A DNA stretch of 30,172 nt, taken from positions 1 to 30,172 of the IMG/VR virus record IMGVR_UViG_3300037099_000343, one strand, 5' to 3'. The DNA is from a virus. The translations under genes and the position numbers were made by a program. This document shows, one piece after another, positions 4,441 to 28,525 of the stretch; the first letter of the stretch is position 1; the number at the start of each line of letters is the position of its first letter. The notes beneath the pieces were generated by a model. It was not told where the DNA came from. It did not search any database and saw nothing but the letters and a program-made list of their open reading frames with translations.

Positions 4441-4720
4441 ATTCTCCTTTTTGTCTTAATCGTAGGGATCGTTCCCCGAACGATCCGAGCGGCGCGTTTG
4501 GGGAAACGCGCCCTACAATTAATGTCCTCCGCTGGCGGAGGTGGTTTTATATCTTTCGTACTCCGGGTCTTTAGACCCGTAAATCTATCTGTTGTCGCGA
4601 TCTTGCTTCCCAACATCTTGAATAATAATCAATAACGATCCGGGCGGCGCGTTTGTGAAAACGCGCCCTACTTCCCTTTGTCATTGCGAGCCTTGGCCTT
4701 GCGAGGCGTGGCAATCTCTC
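4441..4720. repeat. compound array of palindromic intergenic repeats (families A, E, B, A, C)
   Basis: The 284-base gap holds only repeats. Family A, a double hairpin with cores GATCGTTCCCCGAACGATC and GGCGCGTTTGGGGAAACGCG, is at 4461-4516 with a partial copy at 4635-4671. Family E (CCTCCGCTGGCGGAGG) is at 4526-4541. Family B (CGGGTCTTTAGACCCG core) is at 4554-4585. Family C (TCATTGCGAG to GGCAATCTC) is at 4679-4720. The 36 bases at 4441-4476 recur exactly at 13037-13072, including the ribosome binding site of the neighbouring gene. Confidence 0.85.
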
Positions 4721-4721
4721 C

Positions 4722-6668
4722 TTAATTTAAAGAGCAAGTTCCCGATGAACAATAAGCAACCCAATGTGTGGCATCAACTCCTATAACGCATATGCCGTCA
4801 CCGGCAGCACCGGCAGTTTTAACATCTCCGCCCGAGGTGCATAGAGTTCCGCCTAAATCTATATACTGGCCGCTTGCCGAAGTCTGGAATTTAATGATCT
4901 GCGATATTCCCGTATAATTTTTTACGCAATATTGAAGTCCTGCCGCAGCCGTGGGCAGGGTGTAAATAGAATTTGCAGCGGAGTTTCCCTGATTGAAATA
5001 ATATGCGGTCTTATAGGTTGCGCTGCTGATTGTCGTTGGAGAGCTTGCCGTTGATATTACGATATTAACCAGGCCGTCCACAACGCCTGTCGCGGCAAGG
5101 GAAGTGGCAGTAGCAGCGCCGATAGTTACGATGCCGGTTGAACCTGCTGCGGGAGCCGCGCCGACATCGCTTGCAGTCAGAGCCGTCCCATTTATCTTAT
5201 ATTTTTGCCCTGTGGGGATATTAACATTTCCTGATGTATCAATAGAAACCAGACCGCTTTGATAATAGATGCCTCCCGTTCCAAACCAAAAATAACCCGT
5301 CGTGTCATCTTCTCCCATCCACCATGAAGTTGCAGGTGTTGAAGCCGCTGTCGCAAAACCCATAGCGGGTTTGCCGGGACAAAACATCTGACCGTCTGAG
5401 GCAATGGTGCAGGTTGAAGATTGTATAGTATTCGCCGTTCCTTCGGATGTGGTAATGTAATTAGAACTTGAGGATATCGTGCCAAGGATCGTGCCGTTCC
5501 CCGTTCCGGTGCCATTCCCGTAATCCACCCAGGCGTTAGAACCATTCCATATTTGGATCTTCGGATTGCCGCTGTTATTATTAACGCACATCGGATTCGT
5601 TGTAACGCCTGTCAGCGTAGGACAGGAAGTGGTATTTGAAAAGTCGGCATAATGATTACCGTCACCCAATGAAGAATCAAAAGCTGCCCCCGTTATCGTT
5701 GTTCCGGTAATAGCTGCGGGTGTTGTGCCGCCGATGGGCCCAGGCGAAGCAGGATCGAATGATGATCCTCCGCCTCCTGAGCCTAAAGAATTAAGATTAT
5801 AAGTATGGCCGCTTGTGCCCGTAATTGTAAAAGGATAAAGAGGTTGTACGGCCCAGCACCCCTCTGCGTTTCCTGAAGCATCCACGCCCAGGGAGGCATA
5901 ACCTGAACTGCAATTTGTGCCGTTTGCGGCCAATGCCGTGGCTGTTGAAGCATTGCCGGTGACATTGCCTGTCAGGTTTCCCATAAAAGTGCCGCTGATA
6001 GTATCGCCTGACGTGTAATAACCGAGGAATGCTTTTATTGCCGCGATATTCGCCTCATTGACGAGCGTTTTTACATCGTTTGAAGGCATAAAACTTGCCC
6101 AATAAATTAAATTAGTATTGTAATTCGTCAAACTGCCTATGGTCAAATAATCCACGCCGTCAACGGCAATAGAAGGAACGGCAATTCCCCCGGAAACAGT
6201 GACCTTCATCAATCCGGTAGATAACGAACCCAGATTAAACGAATTAGGCAAAGTCGCGTCATTTTGCAACATAAGATAATGCGATGCTAGACTGGCAAAA
6301 GAACCGCTTGAACAACTCGTCACGTAATCTGTTCCAGCTATGGCCGTAGATAATACTGCTGCGCCGCCGGAAACAGACATTTTCAAAAGGCCGCTTGAAA
6401 GGCTTCCTAAATTCGTTCCGTTGGTCAATGACGGCACGTTCTGGGTGGTCATAAGATAACCGGAGGCCGGAGCGCAATTATTCGTTATATACGTTTTAAC
6501 CGCGTTCTGAGAGCTAACAGTGGTATCCGATGAACCTAGGTCAGGATCAACGCTGAACAGATAATTAGCCGCGCCTCCTACAAGATAATCCGCCGTTGCC
6601 GGAATAGGAAGGCAGATAGATATTAGAAATATAATTAATCCGAAAAGCTTCTTTTTAAAATCCTTCAT
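4722..6668 (-). CDS. phage tail-fibre-like protein with signal peptide
   Basis: About 648 residues from ATG 6668. A TTG directly before it is the alternative start, and the ribosome binding site is weak. Residues 1-26 form a signal peptide (lysine-rich start, hydrophobic core, ATA cut). Residues 70-115 and 130-175 are two copies of the stalk repeat common in phage fibres: YLM, then LGSLS-GLLK, then AGTDYV. The middle is Gly/Ser/Thr-rich with low-complexity beta repeats. The last ~110 residues form a Cys-containing, probably beta-rich tip (YCVKNYTG, LCTSGG, YCSSGTCSLN). It is likely a trimeric receptor-binding fibre. It has many cysteines for a phage fibre, and its export signal is unexpected. 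Confidence 0.7.
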   Translation of the reverse strand: MKDFKKKLFGLIIFLISICLPIPATADYLVGGAANYLFSVDPDLGSSDTTVSSQNAVKTYITNNCAPASGYLMTTQNVPSLTNGTNLGSLSSGLLKMSVSGGAAVLSTAIAGTDYVTSCSSGSFASLASHYLMLQNDATLPNSFNLGSLSTGLMKVTVSGGIAVPSIAVDGVDYLTIGSLTNYNTNLIYWASFMPSNDVKTLVNEANIAAIKAFLGYYTSGDTISGTFMGNLTGNVTGNASTATALAANGTNCSSGYASLGVDASGNAEGCWAVQPLYPFTITGTSGHTYNLNSLGSGGGGSSFDPASPGPIGGTTPAAITGTTITGAAFDSSLGDGNHYADFSNTTSCPTLTGVTTNPMCVNNNSGNPKIQIWNGSNAWVDYGNGTGTGNGTILGTISSSSNYITTSEGTANTIQSSTCTIASDGQMFCPGKPAMGFATAASTPATSWWMGEDDTTGYFWFGTGGIYYQSGLVSIDTSGNVNIPTGQKYKINGTALTASDVGAAPAAGSTGIVTIGAATATSLAATGVVDGLVNIVISTASSPTTISSATYKTAYYFNQGNSAANSIYTLPTAAAGLQYCVKNYTGISQIIKFQTSASGQYIDLGGTLCTSGGDVKTAGAAGDGICVIGVDATHWVAYCSSGTCSLN

Positions 6669-11609: not shown

Positions 11610-11688
11610 TCGTGAATCGTGAAGAGTGAAGAGTGAAGGGTGAAGAGAAAAACCATTCACCATTCACGTTTCACCTTTCACGATTCAC
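11610..11688. repeat. GTGAA heptad hairpin (family D, copy 1)
   Basis: Four GTGAA-NN units on the left arm face four NN-TTCAC units on the right. The GTGAA pentamers pair perfectly, while the two-base spacers do not match. The right arm runs into and supplies the TGA stop (11685-11687) of the adaptor gene. Confidence 0.8.
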
Positions 11689-12620
11689 AACATATACATC
11701 CCGCTTCTTTGATTCTTCTCGTAATCCGCCCACAACTTCCTATTGTAAGACCGAAGCGCATCGCACTGCGCCTTATAGAGCTGCGGCCAGACCACCCCTG
11801 CCTCCACCTGTACCTTGTTTTCTCCCAGGCGGGTTACTACGCCCGCTTCGATTGCATGATGGAACTGCGGAGGCAACAAAGGCACGTCATTGTCACTAAC
11901 CAGCAAAGTCGGCCTTGCCTCGTACCATAGCCGCACACCGTATGCCTGATCGTTGCAGTTGAACCACAATAGGACGTTCGTCTCAATTCCCGCATTCGTG
12001 AACGCCTTTATCAAATGATAATGCAGCGGACGCGTTTTGCTGTTGCCCCACCAAGTGATCGACTGCTCGAGATCATGCTCGCTGATAGCGGTTAACTGAT
12101 TGATAAAGCCGATAAGATTCATTTGGATGATCTGCCGGATAGGAAACGCGGTTGAAATCCCCCGGTGCTGGACGCCATTGACCGGCCCGATATTCTGATA
12201 AGAACTGGTGGAAAGCCCGCTTATGTTCGTCGTATTAACAGGATTCCCGTAGATATCGGCAAGCGTGTAGGTCGATGCCGCAGTGCGCGTAAGGAGGAAC
12301 GTGCGGTTACTTAATTGCGGCATGACCTGCACATTATAAAGCGTCACAATATCATTGGTCGCGTAAATATCCGCTGCCGTCACCATGACCGCCGGATTCG
12401 CGTTTGATATCGAAACCGCCGTATCGGATAGTTTCATCAATATAGAATCGTCAAACTGCCTAAGCCAAAACATCGGCCTTAATTCGTCCACATTGAGCAT
12501 TTCATCAAGATAGACGGAATTAATGACGGATTTGACTTCATTCACACGGCTCTTATTGAGATCGCCGATTAACCGGCAGCAATCCTGATACAGCACAGCG
12601 AAGGTTAAAAAATCAGACAT
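11685..12620 (-). CDS. phage head-tail adaptor/head-completion protein with inserted FCCH-like domain
   Basis: 311 residues. The N-terminus is helical (CCRLIGDLNKSRVNEVKSVI, residues 15-34). Residues ~78-140 form a small beta domain (ATNDIVTLYNVQVMPQLSNR, then AASTYTLADIYGNPV) of the kind found in phage adaptors and named after the E1 FCCH domain. The remaining part has RLWYEARPTLLVSDND, LPPQF and HHAIEAGV, a pattern I associate with gp4/tail-tubular-A-like connectors in podovirus-type prophages. It would sit under the portal and link it to the tail hub. The stop codon lies inside a family D repeat. Confidence 0.65.
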   Translation of the reverse strand: MSDFLTFAVLYQDCCRLIGDLNKSRVNEVKSVINSVYLDEMLNVDELRPMFWLRQFDDSILMKLSDTAVSISNANPAVMVTAADIYATNDIVTLYNVQVMPQLSNRTFLLTRTAASTYTLADIYGNPVNTTNISGLSTSSYQNIGPVNGVQHRGISTAFPIRQIIQMNLIGFINQLTAISEHDLEQSITWWGNSKTRPLHYHLIKAFTNAGIETNVLLWFNCNDQAYGVRLWYEARPTLLVSDNDVPLLPPQFHHAIEAGVVTRLGENKVQVEAGVVWPQLYKAQCDALRSYNRKLWADYEKNQRSGMYML

Positions 12621-12636
12621 GAATTACCCCTTTGTT

Positions 12637-12763
12637 TGTCATTGCGAGCCGTTTCTCAAACGGCGTGGCAATCTCTTCCTTTAATCTGTCGTAGTCCGGG
12701 TCTTTAGACCCGTAAATCGTGCCCTTTAATCTTTCGTAGTCCGGGCCTTTAGGCCCGCATATC
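12637..12763. repeat. palindromic repeats C, B, B
   Basis: Family C is at 12637-12676 (TCATTGCGAGCC to GGCAATCTC), and family B is at 12689-12718 and 12734-12763. The two B copies differ by paired changes in the stem (GGGTC/GACCC versus GGGCC/GGCCC), so the hairpin is kept. They fill the adaptor-holin gap. Confidence 0.85.
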
Positions 12764-12778
12764 TCTCACCGAAATATT

Positions 12779-13033
12779 TTATCCTTCTATCTTATTCGTA
12801 TTACTTGTTTCCGGTTTTCCGATTTCCCCCTGCGAATTCGTAAAGAGATTCTTCCCAAGATAAACCAGCCCCGCCGCAAGTCCCGCCGCCAAAGCCTGTT
12901 TGATGGCTGTAGAATCAGGGAAAGCGCCGGTTTGCAGAATCGGAAGAATAGGCGCGATAAACACCACTCCCACGGCCATGATTAAGCCGTGCCCCACGTC
13001 CTTCAAATTTACTCTATATAACTTCGATTCCAT
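12779..13033 (-). CDS. holin candidate
   Basis: 84 residues with AGGAG before ATG 13033. Two hydrophobic segments are visible (about residues 15-33 and 45-60), joined by a polar turn and followed by a short charged tail (KNLFTNSQGEIGKPE). The KDVGHGLIMAVG start and LFTNSQGE tail are typical of small putative holins in proteobacterial prophages. It would make the inner-membrane lesion that releases the lysozyme. It lies with the lysis cluster, which is split here by repeat DNA. Confidence 0.6.
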   Translation of the reverse strand: MESKLYRVNLKDVGHGLIMAVGVVFIAPILPILQTGAFPDSTAIKQALAAGLAAGLVYLGKNLFTNSQGEIGKPETSNTNKIEG

Positions 13034-13036
13034 AAA

Positions 13037-13310
13037 ATTCTCCTTTTTGTCTTAATCGTAGGGATCGTTCCCTTTCCTGTCCTCCGCTGGCGGAGGTGGA
13101 TTTCTTTCTTTCGTAGTCCGAGCCTTTAGGCTCGTCTTATTCTGTCATTGCGAGCCGCACTGTAGGGATCGTTCCCCGAACGATCCGGGCGGCGCGTTTG
13201 GGGAAACGCGCCCTACAATTAATGTCCTCCTTTCTTTCGTAGTCCGAGCCTTTAGGCTCGCCTTATTCTGTCATTGCGAGGCGACCCTTGGGAGCCGTGG
13301 CAATCTCTCT
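13037..13310. repeat. large compound repeat array (A partial, E, B, C partial, A, B, C)
   Basis: The 328 bases between holin and next gene hold only repeats: truncated A at 13057-13072, E at 13081-13096, B at 13111-13135, truncated C at 13142-13160, full A at 13162-13216, B at 13236-13260 and C at 13269-13310. The order A-E-B-C parallels the array at 4441-4720. One copy sits inside another (C is interrupted after GAGCCGCAC by A), which suggests successive insertion. Confidence 0.85.
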
Positions 13311-13361
13311 TTTTCTAAATTGTTCCTTTTAATTGCTCCTTATTTAACTTGCCTTTGGTTG

Positions 13362-13730
13362 CTATACGCCTGCCTGCAATCCCGAAATGAACGAATTGAG
13401 CAACTCCGTTATATCGGCATTGCTCAACGTCGGGACGGCTCCCGCTACATTGAGACCGAGTGCCGATAAAACAATATCCAACTCCGCCTTAATAGTGGCA
13501 TTGCCCGAAAACTGGCCCACCAGTTCATTGATGCCCTGTTGAACAAGAGCGTTCATGGCGGTATTGTCGCCGCCGCCTGTAACTTTTGATAGAATCGCCT
13601 GAGCTGCGGGCAGCATGGCAGCAACGAGTTCCGGATTATTGGTTGCGATCAAAACACCGCCGACATTTGCGGCTATCTTAACCACTGACGTGATAACGCT
13701 TTCCTTGCTTGACGCACAAAATAGTTTCAT
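13362..13730 (-). CDS. small helical phage protein, unknown
   Basis: 122 residues from ATG 13730, preceded by GAGGAG at good spacing. A GTG further up lies inside that site and in repeat DNA. The composition is Ala/Val/Leu/Asn-rich and probably all-helical, with hydrophobic stretches (VVKIAANVGGVLIA, residues 14-28, and NPELVAAMLPAAQAIL, residues 30-46) but no clear membrane span. No family recognised. It lies between the YiiX-like gene and the holin, so a lysis or regulatory role is possible. That is context only. Confidence 0.55.
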   Translation of the reverse strand: MKLFCASSKESVITSVVKIAANVGGVLIATNNPELVAAMLPAAQAILSKVTGGGDNTAMNALVQQGINELVGQFSGNATIKAELDIVLSALGLNVAGAVPTLSNADITELLNSFISGLQAGV

Positions 13731-13741
13731 AATCTTTCTCC

Positions 13742-13767
13742 TCACCTTTCACCTTTCACCTTTCACG
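13742..13767. repeat. TTCAC heptad repeat (family D, single arm)
   Basis: Consecutive CTTTCAC units just upstream of the 13362..13730 gene, without the complementary arm. This is the same unit as 11610-11688. Confidence 0.75.
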
Positions 13768-13772
13768 TTTGT

Positions 13773-14291
13773 TTAATACAACTGAACTCTTGTCTGCCAG
13801 TGCTGCATCTTCTGAGGCAACTCTCCCGGCCAATACGCTATATCGTGAGGCTCTCCGCCGTGAGCCACTTCCACAAACTTTGAACAGAATATTCTCTTAT
13901 CGTCGCCAATCATCTGATGACCAAGCATGAGAATCTCAGCAATGCCCACATAATCGTAGGGAGTGCCTACATAACCAAACGCTATGCCCTCAATCAGGGG
14001 AATCTTCGGCGCAACCGCATCTTTAACCTTATAGTAAAAAACATGACCATTATCCGCGCCAAACCGTTGAGAGGCGAAAGTGATATCAATGCCGTCTGCC
14101 AGGGCTTCAAACAGAAGCACCCTTTTGCCCATGTAAGGGCTGTTCAGGACAACGACAAGCGAACTATGGTTGACATCGTACCCGGTTCGCAGCCTTATGC
14201 CTTCACCGAGGATACTGTTCTCATGCCATTCAACGAGATCTCCGGTCTGCATAGATGGTCTTAACGTGTTGTATAAGGTAAGATCATTCAT
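13773..14291 (-). CDS. YiiX/YebB-like permuted NlpC/P60 papain-fold hydrolase
   Basis: 172 residues. The motif order is that of circularly permuted NlpC/P60 proteins. MQTGDLVEWHEN (14-25) opens the fold, His42 lies in YDVNHSSLVVV, and the late nucleophile Cys136 lies in IFCSKFVEVAHGG. The family includes lipid or peptide amidases and cysteine peptidases acting on cell-wall or membrane substrates. The position next to the lysozyme suggests cell-envelope breakdown, or entry if it is packaged. No signal peptide is present. Substrate unknown. Confidence 0.65.
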   Translation of the reverse strand: MNDLTLYNTLRPSMQTGDLVEWHENSILGEGIRLRTGYDVNHSSLVVVLNSPYMGKRVLLFEALADGIDITFASQRFGADNGHVFYYKVKDAVAPKIPLIEGIAFGYVGTPYDYVGIAEILMLGHQMIGDDKRIFCSKFVEVAHGGEPHDIAYWPGELPQKMQHWQTRVQLY

Positions 14292-14307
14292 ATTCTTCCA
14301 TAATCTT

Positions 14308-14337
14308 TCGTAGTCCGGGCCTTCAGGCCCGAAAATC
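14308..14337. repeat. palindromic repeat, family B
   Basis: Hairpin with GGGCC and GGCCC arms around TTCA, preceded by the family lead TCGTAGTCC. It lies between the YiiX-like and lysozyme genes. Confidence 0.8.
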
Positions 14338-14342
14338 TTCTG

Positions 14343-14792
14343 CTACCCGCTAATCAGCATATTTATAATTTCGTTTGCCCTGTCCGAGTGGACTTCTTTG
14401 TACCAGTTGCTTAACTCTGATTTTCCGTCAGAGTATTTCAATTCATTGGCCGCTCCATACCAGTCTCCGATATTAACGTCATGGACAAATCGGGGGAAGC
14501 CGCGCTTGATCTTATCCGCGCCCATATTGAATATCAGCATAACGAGCGCGGCCTGTTTAGATAACGGAAATGATTTAAATTCAGGAAAGATAAAACCGGC
14601 CTGCATTTCAGCAAGCGATATATCCTTCTCAAGATAAGCGTCCGCGTCCGCCTGTGTGAAGAGATAGGCTTCGCCGGATACAACCTTATGGCCGTAATAA
14701 ATCGTGTCGTACCCCATAGAATCTTTGTAAACTTTCAGGCTGAAACCTTCCCTGACCTTAAGAATAGGTTTGATAATATCTTCGATTGTCAT
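14343..14792 (-). CDS. phage lysozyme (GH24, T4-type endolysin)
   Basis: 149 residues, the normal size for the family. The catalytic signature is complete: Glu15 (REGFSLKVY), eight residues to Asp24 (KDSMGY), five to Thr30, followed by IYYGH. GH24 enzymes cut the beta-1,4 bond between MurNAc and GlcNAc in peptidoglycan. No signal or SAR anchor is visible, so it should need a holin for release. A good holin candidate is 1.3 kb downstream, and a membrane coiled-coil protein lies just upstream. Confidence 0.88.
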   Translation of the reverse strand: MTIEDIIKPILKVREGFSLKVYKDSMGYDTIYYGHKVVSGEAYLFTQADADAYLEKDISLAEMQAGFIFPEFKSFPLSKQAALVMLIFNMGADKIKRGFPRFVHDVNIGDWYGAANELKYSDGKSELSNWYKEVHSDRANEIINMLISG

Positions 14793-14803
14793 CAGTCATT
14801 CTC

Positions 14804-15097
14804 CTATTTATTCTTAAGATGAAAATCTATGTGATCATCCTGTTTCTGCTCAATGCGGGATAGCGTTGAAAAAATAGCCTTCGTAGTCTCCTTAAGGTCG
14901 GCTGCAATGTCCCGCTTATCCGCTTCGGAGCGGTCGAATCTGTTATTTATATCCTGATGTTCTTTCTTGCAGAGCGCGGCATTATAACCGTTGCCATTTC
15001 CATTTTTTGATGGGAATATGCGGTATAATGTGGCTACAATTCCTAGAGCCGTACTTCCAAATCCAATGCCTGTTGCTATTCCAGTTCCAATATCCAT
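14804..15097 (-). CDS. small membrane protein with coiled-coil tail, lysis-associated candidate
   Basis: 97 residues from ATG 15097, where AGGGG sits seven bases upstream. The longer frame runs into repeat DNA. There is one N-terminal hydrophobic segment (about residues 4-25, TGIATGIGFGSTALGIVATL), then a charged helix (residues 45-95) with heptad character. The layout fits an i-spanin or XhlA-like membrane protein. No o-spanin partner with a lipobox was seen inside or after it. The call rests on topology and on its place 12 bases before the lysozyme. Confidence 0.5.
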   Translation of the reverse strand: MDIGTGIATGIGFGSTALGIVATLYRIFPSKNGNGNGYNAALCKKEHQDINNRFDRSEADKRDIAADLKETTKAIFSTLSRIEQKQDDHIDFHLKNK

Positions 15098-15119
15098 TCC
15101 CAATCCCCTATCCTCAATG

Positions 15120-15168
15120 GTGAAGGGTGAAAAGTGAATCGCTTCACCCTTCACCCTTCACCCTTCAC
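15120..15168. repeat. GTGAA heptad hairpin (family D, copy 3)
   Basis: Three GTGAA-NN units face four CCTTCAC units around a short loop. It ends three bases before the TAA stop of the 15171..16043 gene. Confidence 0.8.
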
Positions 15169-15170
15169 GA

Positions 15171-16043
15171 TTATTTCATCCGGGTAAACCAGTAATGGAT
15201 ATATCCCGCTGCCATAGTTGTTCCGCCGCTGCCGGTGTAGGAAATCGTTGTCGCATTGGAGCCTGTAACGATATAACCAAGATAGGTTTTTCCGCCCACA
15301 AGATCGACATTGGCCGAATCCGTACCGGTCGTGCTCGAGTATAGAAACGAACCGTAAGTGCTGGCCGGAACATACTGGCCATTTGTCCCCTTTGTAGATA
15401 CGGCTGTGTCCGCAACATATCCCGCCGTGGTCATCAGCAATCCGGTAATAAAGCCGGTTGCGCTGCCGTTGGGCTGAGTGGATAATAGACCTACAGCAAG
15501 AGTCTTGGCCGAATCCGTGGTAACCACCTGCACACGAACATCACCAACAAAAGTATCGGGCACAAAAGAAACTCCGGTGGAAGTCTCAGACGTGGACGGC
15601 GCAAACCATATAATGCCGTGATGAGGCATGTTGGGCGTCTCATCAATGACAATGGTGTGCATGTTGAGCGAAAATCCCTTCACAACCGCAGTGTAGCCTC
15701 CGTTGGTGTCCGTGACGATAATATCAACGGTTGTATTGGCGTTCCGGAACTTAATGAGACCGTTGCCGCCGGTCGTCGCCGCAAAGACAGTGGGAGTCAC
15801 CGGATTAGTGACCGATGTATAGGAATTATCCGCGTATTTTGTCAGGGTGGAAATCGTGGAAGTTCCCGCATCCAGAACCTGATAGGTTATTCCCGTGGTA
15901 ATGGGCGTCAGGCCGACATTGCCTATAGTGGTATTATCCCGTTTTACAACCGACGCGTAAAAATCATTATACGCGAAGGCGGGCAGCGTAAATACTGCCA
16001 TCAACATAAAAATCAAACTGATTAACCAAAATTGTTTCTTCAT
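15171..16043 (-). CDS. exported beta-rich protein in the capsid region, unknown
   Basis: 290 residues. Of three in-frame ATGs, 16043 has the proper GGAGG spacing of five bases. Residues 1-24 form a strong signal peptide (LPAFA cut). The mature part is Thr/Gly/Val-rich, cysteine-free and probably beta-sandwich. Around residues 30-125 there is an Ig-like/carboxypeptidase-regulatory feel (NGLIKFRNANTTVDIIVTDT), and the C-terminal half is rich in short strands (SYTGSGGTTMAAGYIHYW). Place and composition would suit a capsid decoration protein, but the export signal argues against simple cytoplasmic assembly. No family recognised. Confidence 0.6.
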   Translation of the reverse strand: MKKQFWLISLIFMLMAVFTLPAFAYNDFYASVVKRDNTTIGNVGLTPITTGITYQVLDAGTSTISTLTKYADNSYTSVTNPVTPTVFAATTGGNGLIKFRNANTTVDIIVTDTNGGYTAVVKGFSLNMHTIVIDETPNMPHHGIIWFAPSTSETSTGVSFVPDTFVGDVRVQVVTTDSAKTLAVGLLSTQPNGSATGFITGLLMTTAGYVADTAVSTKGTNGQYVPASTYGSFLYSSTTGTDSANVDLVGGKTYLGYIVTGSNATTISYTGSGGTTMAAGYIHYWFTRMK

Positions 16044-16067
16044 CATATCCTCCATAAAATGTGTTGT

Positions 16068-16727
16068 TTAAGGTGTATACGCCGTGGAATTATTGCCGTA
16101 CTGATTCCCGTGGCAATCTTCAATCACCATGAGAATCGCGGCCGTGTACCACAACGCCGTGTAATTTGTGTCTGTTACGGTTGAATCCCGGTCAAGTAAC
16201 TGTGTCAGCACTTGAATTGAATTAACGATCGCCGCCAGGCAATCAATCAAATGATGCTGATCCGTCATTCCCTGCGGATTGAACCAATACGTATTTCCAT
16301 TTCCAAGGGTGTTCCCTCCTTCGCCCGTCACCATCCAGAGATAAAGAGCCGCATAGGCTCTATCGTTGTATTGAGGTGGAGTGGATTGTTGAAGACCGTC
16401 CGTATCCAGTTGCGCCGTCAGCGTATTCATCATATCGAATATCTGATAGAGCATGGCGTTTAAGCCTTTATCTGAAATTCCTGTCGGTCTGACATCCTGC
16501 CAATACCTGTCTTTGGATGCTATGTAGTTACTTACCGTGTTGCCGCGCGAATCCTCGATCTTTCCGTTGAATTTCGCCGTGAAGCAGTTCGCCAGATGTG
16601 TCGTGTGATTCACGCCGGCATCGGCATCGAGCTTGGTGCAAATCCCCTGTATCGCCGCCACGATCATATAAAGCAGGTCAACAAGGTTGCGTTGAGATAA
16701 CCCCTGTGGTTTTATCTGAGCTTCCAT
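16068..16727 (-). CDS. triple-repeat helical phage protein, unknown
   Basis: 219 residues built from three copies of a ~60-residue unit spaced about 72 apart (starting near residues 8, 82 and 152). Each opens with P-x-G-(L/I/M)-(S/T) and runs into a helix: LVDLLYMIVAAIQGICTKLD, LNAMLYQIFDMMNTLTAQLD and LIDCLAAIVNSIQVLTQLLD. Repeats 1 and 3 both end IED-x-(R/H)GN. The pattern is probably helical with an internal pseudo-threefold arrangement. No family recognised. It starts four bases after 16732..17349 and is presumably a virion component from position. Confidence 0.6.
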   Translation of the reverse strand: MEAQIKPQGLSQRNLVDLLYMIVAAIQGICTKLDADAGVNHTTHLANCFTAKFNGKIEDSRGNTVSNYIASKDRYWQDVRPTGISDKGLNAMLYQIFDMMNTLTAQLDTDGLQQSTPPQYNDRAYAALYLWMVTGEGGNTLGNGNTYWFNPQGMTDQHHLIDCLAAIVNSIQVLTQLLDRDSTVTDTNYTALWYTAAILMVIEDCHGNQYGNNSTAYTP

Positions 16728-16731
16728 AATT

Positions 16732-17349
16732 CTAGACCTCGTCCTCGGTCAGAGTTGTTGCCTCTCCGCCGGTATCCTGAGTTGATTCACCGGCTATAAA
16801 TGCCGCCTCGCGCTCAAGTTGTAACTTCGGATTTATAATCTGCTCAAATACGCGCTTAAGACGCTGATCCTGCGCCGTATCCAAAAACAAATAATTGGAA
16901 TCGACGAGAATACGTTTGCCTTTATCATCATATTTAAAGCAGAGTTGAGCGCGGACGTTGTGCGATGGAACGATTGCGCAGTAGAATTCTTTGCCGCCGA
17001 CTTCCACAATGCGGTCAAAGACAACTTCGGTGTTTTCGTTTTCCTCATAATCCCTGACAAAACGGGCATGAGTGTTTTTGACCTGCTCAAAAGTTCCATC
17101 CTTCGTTTTCACTTTCCGGTTTGAGGGATCTAGCCGGACGGCCACGGTAGGATTAAGAGCCACCACATAGGCCAGATACGTTTCCGCCCCGCCTATAGTG
17201 ACCTTCTTCATGGGATATCCGTCAAACGGACGCGAAACACGCGCCGCCGCAAGCGGTATCGGCTGAAAATTAAGTTCTCCTATCCCTTTCAATGCCTCGT
17301 CCAGTTTCCCTTCTCCCGCGACCGGGTCTATCTTTTTCGGTGCTGCCAT
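16732..17349 (-). CDS. phage structural-region protein, unknown
   Basis: 205 residues, soluble, mixed alpha/beta. It is basic in the first third (RPFDGYPMKKVTIGG) and acidic at the end (STQDTGGEATTLTEDEV). A beta-rich middle contains FVRDYEENENTEVVFDRIVE and FYCAIVPSHNVRAQLCF. There is no signal peptide. It is the first gene after the major capsid gene, a slot often held by head-completion or decoration proteins, but I recognise no family. Confidence 0.55.
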   Translation of the reverse strand: MAAPKKIDPVAGEGKLDEALKGIGELNFQPIPLAAARVSRPFDGYPMKKVTIGGAETYLAYVVALNPTVAVRLDPSNRKVKTKDGTFEQVKNTHARFVRDYEENENTEVVFDRIVEVGGKEFYCAIVPSHNVRAQLCFKYDDKGKRILVDSNYLFLDTAQDQRLKRVFEQIINPKLQLEREAAFIAGESTQDTGGEATTLTEDEV

Positions 17350-17493
17350 AATAGTATTTCCTCAATCTCCCTGTGTTCGGGCGGCGGCAGGGGCGGGAGA
17401 CCCCCTTATCATCTGCACGGCCAGTGCAAACTAGCCGCCATAATCGTTAGTCGTGAATGGTTTTTCTCTTCACTTTTCACCTTTCACTTTTCA
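17350..17493. repeat. intergenic spacer with family D repeat (unit at 17450-17494)
   Basis: The left part, 17350-17449, is unremarkable GC-rich spacer. From 17450 one GTGAA unit is followed by four TTCAC heptads, which run into the TAG stop (17494-17496) of the major capsid gene. No promoter recognised. Confidence 0.7.
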
Positions 17494-18483
17494 CTAATTG
17501 TTAGTCCTGTAAGTCCTGACGGCAATAACCGCGATATCGGCGGCGTTAAACACGTTCTTGCTCACGCCGTAAATCGAGCCGATACAGAAGCCTGCTTTGT
17601 TCTGGTAATCGAAAGTCTTTTCCTCCCAGATTTTCTTCTTGGAATAAGCAATCGAACCCGCGCCAATACCCATAAACAGTGCCGTCGCTCCTGCCAGATT
17701 CGCGCCTGATCCCCAATTAGTGACAGTCGCTACTCTCTGGTGATCGTGAATCGCGCAATTCTTATGAACGCCCAGGGCAATCCCGAAAATGGGATTATCG
17801 TCGCCGCGTTTCTGTGCTTCGCGCTGTGCCTGCGCCCATGCCGCATCACGCTCGGATAAGTCATAAGACTGATCGGGAGCCATGACGATAACGCCGTTCA
17901 TCGCCTTTCCTTTGACCGTGGGGCCAATGATAAGAGGTTTGGCCTTGCGTCCGTAGGTGACGCACTGAGAAATCAGAGACAGAGTCATGTAATTGCCTGC
18001 CGCGATTGTCGCGGTCGTGGTTGCTCCGGTGGGATAAATAACCTTGGTAGGATTATTCCCTAGAGCTGTGAAGATGTCCTGATCGATCTTTGCCGCCATC
18101 CAGCGTTGCAAAAGCTCCTTGGCGTATTCCCTGATCTTGTTATCGGAAACCCGCATTTCGGTTTCACGGCCTGCGGTACGCACTGCATTTCTGATCTGGG
18201 TCAGTGTGATTGAATTGTCGTAAGTAGAAGGCGCTTCTTCGTTGCCTTCCATGATACTGTCATTGGGAACGCCGCCGCCGGAAAGCTCGCGGATCTGCCC
18301 TATGGTTAAAACGTCGCCCTGTTCTTTTTGAAGGTCGGCGAATTCAACGATGATATTGGAATCAGACTCTCCGACAAAACCGTTCTCGTAAAAGTACGAG
18401 CTTGTCTTTGCTTCCATCCACCACCTTTTAGCCCATGCCTTGCGGGTCAAGGCGTTTCCTGTCGTAAATGTAAAATCAGCCAT
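17494..18483 (-). CDS. major capsid protein, N4-gp56 (DUF4043-like) type
   Basis: 329 residues with a GGAG ribosome binding site. The first part follows the family pattern: ALTRKAWAKRWWMEAKTSSY, then NIIVEFADLQKEQGDVLTIG, EGNEEAPSTYDN, and the helix RTAGRETEMRVSDNKIREYA. These are hallmarks of N4-gp56-type HK97-fold capsid proteins. It would form the icosahedral shell on the scaffold encoded just upstream in the transcript. There is no N-terminal delta domain and no signal peptide. The stop codon lies against a family D repeat. Confidence 0.88.
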   Translation of the reverse strand: MADFTFTTGNALTRKAWAKRWWMEAKTSSYFYENGFVGESDSNIIVEFADLQKEQGDVLTIGQIRELSGGGVPNDSIMEGNEEAPSTYDNSITLTQIRNAVRTAGRETEMRVSDNKIREYAKELLQRWMAAKIDQDIFTALGNNPTKVIYPTGATTTATIAAGNYMTLSLISQCVTYGRKAKPLIIGPTVKGKAMNGVIVMAPDQSYDLSERDAAWAQAQREAQKRGDDNPIFGIALGVHKNCAIHDHQRVATVTNWGSGANLAGATALFMGIGAGSIAYSKKKIWEEKTFDYQNKAGFCIGSIYGVSKNVFNAADIAVIAVRTYRTNN

Positions 18484-19864: not shown

Positions 19865-19889
19865 GCCCTACCCTTTTACAACTTTCTTC

Positions 19890-20004
19890 TGTCATTACGA
19901 GCCGCGCCTCGCGCGGCGTGGTAATCCCATGTCTTGCGAGATTGCCACGGCTCCCAAGGGTCGCCTCGCAATGACAATTTTTTAATGTCCTCCGCTGGCG
20001 GAGG
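19890..20004. repeat. inverted pair of family C repeats plus family E
   Basis: Family C is at 19890-19928, a second copy in reverse orientation is at 19936-19977, and E is at 19989-20004. The reverse copy is identical over about 39 bases to 13269-13308. They lie between the portal stop and the 28-residue ORF. The rest of 19628-20051 is the terminator, the short ORF and the scaffold leader. Confidence 0.85.
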
Positions 20005-20051
20005 TGGCGCAACGCGCCGGAGGTGGAAACGCTTTCAATACTGCCATATTC

Positions 20052-24854: not shown

Positions 24855-24902
24855 GCGGACATTTATGTCCGCTATCAAACCGGTCTGAAGACCCGGACTA
24901 CG
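24855..24902. repeat. small hairpin and reversed family B repeat at the right end of the phage block
   Basis: GCGGACATTTATGTCCGC (24855-24872) is a perfect hairpin, followed by a reversed family B copy at 24882-24902. From there to 24972 the DNA is spacer with a degenerate GTGAA/TTCAC-like pair (CGTGAAGATCGCTCACG) touching the stop codon of the next gene. Confidence 0.7.
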
Positions 24903-24972
24903 TTTTGCATCAACAATCGTAAAGAGTGATTTGAGGATTACGATTTGAAAGACGTGAAGATCGCTCACGAAT

Positions 24973-25338
24973 CTATGTCAATAACCAACGAAGAGCTTTT
25001 TCTTCGCTGCTCCCAACGTATACGTTAGCTTCGCTATTTACCGCCATATTCTCCGCAAACTTATTTATGTGCTCCGGCCTTCTAAGCATGGCTAACTTGA
25101 ATTTATTTCCGAATATAGTGGCAACCAGCGCGCCGAGATAGAACTTTTGCATATCCCTCACATTAGGTAAATTGAACGCATCGACAAGAATTCTTGCGCG
25201 TTTGTTTTCTTCTGACAACTTCTTGACGGTCATTATTGTGTTATTAATATCGGCAATATGGGCGAATGGATTCCCCTCCCCGGAGAGAGTAATCTTCAGG
25301 TATTCATCAAAGACTTCAAATGATAATTGAGGATTCAA
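24973..25338 (-). CDS. STAS/SpoIIAA-like small protein
   Basis: 121 residues, starting at TTG 25338 just behind GGAGG. The pattern is beta-beta-alpha-beta-alpha: FEVFDEYLKITLSGEGN, ARILVDAFNLPNV, KFKLAMLRRPEHINKFAENM, ANVYVGSSEEKALRWL. It resembles the SpoIIAA-like/STAS-SEC14 proteins often found as stand-alone regulators. The segment RILVD is where such proteins carry the switch region. The partner is unknown. First non-phage gene to the right of the terminase. A TATAAT lies at about 25430-25436 on the minus strand. Confidence 0.55.
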   Translation of the reverse strand: MNPQLSFEVFDEYLKITLSGEGNPFAHIADINNTIMTVKKLSEENKRARILVDAFNLPNVRDMQKFYLGALVATIFGNKFKLAMLRRPEHINKFAENMAVNSEANVYVGSSEEKALRWLLT

Positions 25339-28396: not shown

Positions 28397-28518
28397 GAGA
28401 TCGCCACGTTCATTGTCGTGAACTCGCGATGACAAAAAAACGGGCCTGAAGGCCCGGACTACGAAAGAAAACTACTCTTTGTCATCGCGAGACGACTCTC
28501 AGTCGTCGTGGCGATCTA
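28397..28518. repeat. host-flank copies of repeat families C, B, C
   Basis: Reversed family C variant at 28397-28434 (ATCGCCACG to CGCGATGAC), reversed family B at 28441-28466 and family C variant at 28480-28518. They fill the gap between thioesterase and DUF2993-like genes. The rest of 28219-28525 is AT-rich spacer. These copies show that families B and C are not confined to the phage block. Confidence 0.85.
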
Positions 28519-28525
28519 TCTTTAT

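Follow-up and report, generated by a model that had tools for sequence, protein, structure and literature searches.

Why should a tandem repeat with a period of seven bases stand at the ends of virion genes? The question is raised by a virus record of 30,172 bases (IMGVR_UViG_3300037099_000343), taken here over its full length as the window, in which a major capsid protein (MCP), a portal, and a terminase are all encoded. A first-pass annotation had pointed to four arrays of GTGAA plus two free bases (GTGAANN), mirrored as TTCAC, at the stop codons of virion genes. Direct reading and pattern counts bore this out. The period-7 arrays are located at 11612-11688 (array A), 13748-13766 with a degenerate unit at 13741 (array B), 15120-15168 (array C), and 17453-17494 (array D), and (GTGAANN)3 with no more than two mismatches gave 17 matches in the window compared with 0.04 expected from shuffled sequences (largest shuffle, 1). 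The reversed pattern, used as a control, gave no matches in the window. Each of the four is on the sense strand behind a stop: the TGA of the adaptor gene is inside array A, array D shares one base with the MCP stop (TAG at 17494), and arrays C and B are 2 nt (stop at 15171) and 6 nt away, respectively, in agreement with the annotated stops of the adaptor, capsid-region, and capsid genes. By contrast, a degenerate pair claimed at the stop at 24973 proved to be one GTGAA (24954-24958) and one CTCAC (24964-24968), and the site is unsupported because dozens of single pentamers are expected in 30 kb. With a probability of about 0.58, these arrays derive by copying from a dispersed repeat with heptad arms, similar to repetitive extragenic palindromes (REPs), which entered the phage several times and was gained recently behind existing virion-gene stops with the proteins unchanged.

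We compared the four sites with those of viral relatives. Among 12 MCP-bearing relatives, three carried arrays and nine carried none. The same stop position and C-terminus, with substitutions allowed, were found in every array-free relative that could be scored: 4/4 for site A, 1/1 for B, 4/4 for C, and 5/5 for D (L025 and L026, at site D, look alike; L024 bears array C and was not counted there; relatives lacking the region were not scored). At site D, the stop of the relatives is followed immediately by an intergenic segment that is conserved, and the window is 46 nt longer than L025. At sites A, B, and C, some relatives have additional sequence or palindromic repeats of other kinds in the same gap; in L027, the aligned flanks of site A are separated by 33 nt only. 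Since the stop position and C-terminus are kept in array-free relatives, the arrays were added behind pre-existing stops and did not create them.

The position of arrays relative to genes was then counted in further sets, with genes called by a simple longest-open reading frame (ORF) rule that leaves the starts rough. Stop edges within 10 nt of an array, including stops inside it, amounted to 4 of 4 in the window, 15 of 21 in other viral contigs (5.4 expected under uniform placement), 87 of 130 in genome loci (59.7 expected), and 28 of 65 in Flavihumibacter (15.2 expected). The last three counts were each above all 2000 simulations. The corresponding fractions for start edges were 2/4, 3/23, 15/106, and 8/29. 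From these counts, 16 contig-edge arrays and one intragenic array (genome loci), one of each (viral contigs), two intragenic arrays (Flavihumibacter), and L015, a copy of L024, were omitted. Some of the stop bias has trivial causes, since an array in a short gap simply fills it and since GTGAANN has TGA in all three frames. A clean test of stop adjacency was provided by the Flavihumibacter genome G030, which carries GTTTAAN arrays. The test was confined to gaps with room of 60 nt or more, in which the arrays supplied no stop. Of 32 stop edges, 14 were 0-10 nt away compared with 1.6 expected, and 2 of 16 start edges fell in this range. In G030, the orientation at stops was sense in 18 cases and antisense in 2. 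One-armed arrays at stops were also mostly sense (40 compared with 8 antisense, five sets). Arrays are outward-oriented, sense behind a stop and antisense before a start. The first-pass annotation had staked its idea on a positional bias relative to genes. Other viral contigs show this bias, as do genome loci from many phyla and the GTTTAAN family, and the idea therefore survives.

Two-armed GTGAANN arrays were detected in 14 viral stretches and in at least 117 bacterial genome stretches of many phyla, the latter chosen for having two arms, each of three or more units. The record titles include Bacteroidetes, Geobacter, Acidobacteria, cyanobacteria, Chloroflexi-type bacteria, Gallionella, Planctomycetota, and others. 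In 20 array-bearing genomes, 15 to 394 GTGAANN triads were counted per genome, compared with 0 to 32 when the reversed pattern served as control. The spread is patchy: in one phylum, 2 of 118 genomes had a two-armed array, and in another, 5 of 117, with the center genome counted in both. Even within the single genus Flavihumibacter (15 congeners), the number of GTGAANN triads ranged from 0 to 268 per genome, with no match in five. G030 had no GTGAANN triad and 67 GTTTAAN triads, which had no match in its 14 congeners. The rpmD-rplO gap was compared among 13 congeners, with classes assigned by reading the sequences. This gap holds GTGAANN palindromes in G007, G021 (degenerate), G029, G028, and G022, a decayed form in G027, a GTTTAAN palindrome in G030, other periodic palindromes in G033 and G025, other hairpins in G023 and G024, and nothing in G006 and G026. 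These results indicate that heptad-armed repeats are not a phage peculiarity and that genome-specific versions likewise stand behind genes in many bacteria.

Several other periodic features were observed in Flavihumibacter. In a period scan with low-complexity filters, the intergenic DNA of several congeners was enriched in period 7 over shuffles, with some period-8 variants; the enrichment was absent in the stretches of G026 and G025. Further periodic families (L233, L265, L268, and L255) include heptads of GTAGGAA in G028 and of GTTTGAA in G023, which also has GCAAAGGY octads, as well as GGTAAGC units in G006. Degenerate GTCAGAC units adjoin the arrays of the genus. In L156, L183, and L186, heptad arms, one per gene end, bracket intergenic regions with differing hairpins resembling intrinsic terminators.

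Arrays A and D have an 11-nt core in common, in opposite orientation, and thus a unit larger than the heptads was copied. In G030, a conserved GGTTGCTGCCGCG-like tail was present in 16 of 29 arrays, and a core of type AAAAGYCTTTGATCTT recurs among the G002 copies listed. Copies with common cores or tails outside the heptads therefore spread by copying. According to the mechanism that we propose, the repeat would have arms of tandem 7-bp units, usually four, opposed to one another across a short core; every arm would carry GTGAA on the sense strand of the preceding gene and begin directly behind its stop. A trans-acting enzyme recognizing the heptad arm may spread the copies, the phage may have acquired its own from the repeat family of its host, and the main reason for the persistence of the copies would be that they are tolerated at the spot behind a stop codon.

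Three explanations had been offered with the first-pass annotation, namely an mRNA-end structure, a protein-binding array, and a mobile element. We examined the predicted RNA folds. Array C forms one unbroken 20-bp stem (-38.7 kcal/mol, z = -8.6) in which the spacers are paired, and array A also folds strongly (-46.5 kcal/mol, z = -9.0), with its outer spacers paired as well. The annotated rule that the pentamers pair and the spacers do not is therefore not borne out. The fold of array D is weak (-8.7 kcal/mol, z = -2.3), and array B has no RNA fold (0 kcal/mol), so the term hairpin is apt for A and C and not for B and D. Because two of the four arrays hardly fold, an mRNA-end structure is weak as a common denominator, and a simple hairpin terminator was rejected on the same ground. 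Direct reading and folding also gave no sign of an intrinsic terminator (no consensus scan was made): no T-run follows A or C on the sense strand, and B and D fold poorly. The arrays may still bind a protein. A mobile element fits best, given the empty sites, common cores, patchy counts, and genome-specific families, despite the absence of a target-site duplication.

Several results weigh against the mobile repeat. Direct repeats of at least 4 nt flank 5 of 134 two-armed arrays, compared with 5.8 expected; with the target-site duplication signal missing, classical transposition by a DDE-type transposon or a miniature inverted-repeat transposable element was rejected. Y1_Tnp (PF01797) was found in 4 of 15 congeners, two of them over the cut-off, and among the eight array-rich congeners only G007 and G028 had a match. 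The transposase does not track the arrays, and a REP-associated tyrosine transposase (RAYT) was rejected as the mover. By inspection, no obvious common mobilization gene was present between arrays. A full-length element with a gene between its arms was also rejected: the inter-array ORFs are mixed and ordinary, and a 0.6-kb array pair in L278 encloses just short ORFs (inspection; no family search was made). The core and arm spacing varies, and the terminators bracketed by the Flavihumibacter arms look native and differ from one another, an odd arrangement if the repeat were a single mobile unit. The host origin of the phage arrays is a point that we infer. Finally, when stop-containing arrays were removed, the excess at stops disappeared in genome loci (38 compared with 34.9 simulated) and in Flavihumibacter (12 compared with 12.1); in viral contigs, the remaining count was 10 compared with 4.7, equal to the largest simulation.

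The main rival is a functional 3' element under selection. A DNA- or RNA-binding protein would read the heptads at gene ends, or a structure would protect the mRNA 3' end or tune translation, as REPs near stops do in Escherichia coli, and the genome-specific heptads would reflect co-evolution with the binding protein. The number of units per arm bears on this explanation. Four units are the usual maximum: in three data sets, the chance of extension from three to four units was 0.56, 0.77, and 0.59, and that from four to five was 0.22, 0.11, and 0.12 (in one set, values below four units are affected by the selection for at least three units per arm). This limit, a conserved pentamer with freer spacers, the sense orientation of one-armed arrays behind stops, and the strong folds of A and C all speak for a functional element. 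The same is true of the rpmD-rplO gap, where one site bears differing heptad palindromes in several congeners, and REPs within 15 nt of a stop are cited as down-regulating translation in the available text of PMC12306157. However, close phage relatives have no arrays at the same sites, five of the 15 congeneric genomes have none at all, and B and D fold poorly. We thus regard a functional element as unlikely, although it is the alternative to be taken most seriously.

Local origin is less probable still. Polymerase slippage would generate the 7-nt tandems, template switching the inverted arm, and selection would purge copies not behind genes. Heptads are over-represented in bacterial genomes, and contact with the polymerase has been proposed as the cause (PMC4692102 and PMC4679880, available text); very long arrays of up to 18 units exist, and the missing target-site duplication is in keeping with local origin. 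Nevertheless, run lengths collapse beyond four units, a single heptad occurs throughout one genome (G030) and is missing in its congeners, and the cores and tails common to copies already disfavor local origin. Least probable of all is a mechanical artefact in which the TGA in all three frames of GTGAANN ends any entering frame and makes the link to stops meaningless, as argued for TAACTGA by MacGregor (PMC4679880, available text): in genome loci, 49 of the 130 stop edges do fall inside an array and carry the excess over uniform placement there, as such edges do in Flavihumibacter, but the stops kept in array-free relatives refute stop supply as the sole cause for the four window arrays, the G030 arrays follow stops that they do not supply, and stop supply is left as a partial cause elsewhere.

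The coordinates of the arrays and of the genes that they border are summarized in Table 1. The closest annotated phage MCPs are ~30% identical to that of the window, and their hosts are proteobacterial and other. An Rfam search of the window matched no RNA family.

Table 1. Parts of the four heptad arrays and the adjoining genes in the window.
Feature	Coordinates	Strand	Remark
Array A, left arm	11612-11644	+	Five GTGAANN units
Array A, core	11645-11655	none	GAGAAAAACCA; common with array D in inverted orientation
Array A, right arm	11656-11688	-	Five units; adaptor stop TGA (11685-11687) inside first minus-strand unit
Adaptor-like gene	11685-12620	-	SU10_adaptor, below Pfam cut-off; stop borders array A
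Array B, one arm	13741-13766	-	Three exact units and a degenerate fourth (CTCAC); 13773 stop 6 nt away
Gene with weak Peptidase_C92 similarity	13773-14291	-	Below Pfam cut-off; stop borders array B
Array C, left arm	15120-15138	+	Three units
Array C, core	15139-15142	none	TCGC
Array C, right arm	15143-15168	-	Four units (26 nt); 15171 stop 2 nt away
Gene with apparent signal peptide	15171-16055	-	Signal peptide read from sequence, not tool-predicted; stop borders array C
Array D, left arm	17453-17457	+	Single GTGAA unit; direct reading
Array D, core	17458-17468	none	TGGTTTTTCTC; reverse complement of array A core; direct reading
Array D, right arm	17469-17494	-	Four units (26 nt); directly behind MCP stop (17494-17496)
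Major capsid protein (MCP)	17494-18483	-	phrog_334; stop borders array D

Other features were observed near the arrays. Array D is placed between the capsid stop and a conserved, probably structured segment (17360-17451) that precedes the next gene and is kept in relatives down to 78% DNA identity of the capsid gene. Its stem seems to change on both sides (TTTGCAC/GTGCAGA compared with TCCGCAC/GTGCGGA in L013), with no Rfam match. A small gene beside array C (14806-15110) is replaced between the window and L024, and DNA similarity restarts at 15111, adjoining the array, so that the repeat looks like the marker of an exchange point between the two sequences. At least four further palindromic repeat families occur in intergenic gaps of the phage and its relatives (CATTGCGAG..GGCAATCT, GTAGTCCGGGCC..GGCCCG, CCTCCGCTGGCGGAGG, and GCGCGTTT..AAACGCGC); in the window they are located at 4441-4723, 12629-13312, 14301-14338, 19882-20007, 24877-24902, and 28427-28519. 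Outside the viral relatives, one family each matched L012 and L052. Some heptad-array sites are taken by these families in relatives.

That 7-bp repeats abound in bacterial genomes was pointed out in 2007 or earlier, with no agreed cause according to the available text of PMC4692102. The origin of heptad repeats is now testable with congeners that carry different heptads at one site and with filled and empty phage sites at 86-89% DNA identity. Two further observations bear on it: a four-unit limit in a heptad generally unable to form G-quadruplexes, and arrays behind stops that are not of their making. By sequence, the GTGAANN spacers are mostly not GG and cannot generally form such structures; array C has GG spacers and hence G-tracts, and most arrays have none. 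The four-unit rule therefore needs a cause other than the G-quadruplex.

How do the arrays compare with known systems? The Rex operator, like the arrays, has GTGAA facing TTCAC. It is a single palindrome with fixed short spacing, and it was rejected because the array cores span 11, 4, and 11 nt and the units are tandem. REP elements of the GTAG/CGTC superfamilies (PMC3733652 and PMC12306157, available text) resemble the arrays in being short extragenic palindromes at gene 3' ends that form dimers, sometimes supply stops, and are uneven between strains. The arrays are likewise dispersed, intergenic, palindromic if two-armed, and close to gene 3' ends, with the 15 to 394 triads per genome given above. 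Unlike them, REPs have one stem of 5-13 bp, a single tag (GTAG or CGTC), and no 7-bp tandem arms; direct reading of the outer ends showed neither tag in any of the four window arrays. GTAG-class REPs accompany tyrosine transposases according to the same sources, whereas such transposases were not associated with heptad arrays in the 15 congeners.

Closer counterparts are found among heptad repeats, although no report on GTGAANN arrays was recognized in the open-access literature, a search mostly outside subscription journals. The GGGAATC (Xanthomonas) and GGGGAYT (Nostoc) repeats described by Rehm et al. in 2015 (PMC4692102) share with GTGAANN the period of 7, the preference for four units, the intergenic location, and the outward orientation, sense near a stop or antisense upstream of an ORF; 70-75 convergent inverted heptad pairs occur per Xanthomonas genome. 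They differ in the heptad itself and in a four-unit rule tied to G-quadruplex formation, and the available text of that work does not mention phages, in which GTGAANN arrays occur. The TAACTGA repeats of Beggiatoaceae, cyanobacteria, and Bacteroidetes (MacGregor 2015, PMC4679880) also have a period of 7, stops in all frames, and a patchy distribution across phyla with suspected horizontal spread, but, as the available text describes them, they are mostly direct and located just upstream of start codons and do not form palindromic arms behind stops. In the available account of Geobacter metallireducens (PMC2700814), GGACCGG (four units at 49 sites) and MTYCTGA (five units) are dispersed in four or five tandem units like GTGAANN; their sequences are different, and their annotation is that of predicted regulatory RNA or of sites for a global regulator. 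On the other strand, we read MTYCTGA as GTCAGRA, near the degenerate GTCAGAC units beside Flavihumibacter arrays. If one enzyme class were to explain heptad repeats, it would represent a new kind of bacterial repeat mobilizer. We tentatively suggest that GGGAATC, GGGGAYT, TAACTGA, GGACCGG, MTYCTGA, GTGAANN, and GTTTAAN might be dialects of one class of mobile element, with arms of about four units pointing outward from genes, put behind stops by an enzyme of genome-specific specificity and also riding in phages, in which the four-unit rule would reflect the binding site of the enzyme and not G-quadruplexes.

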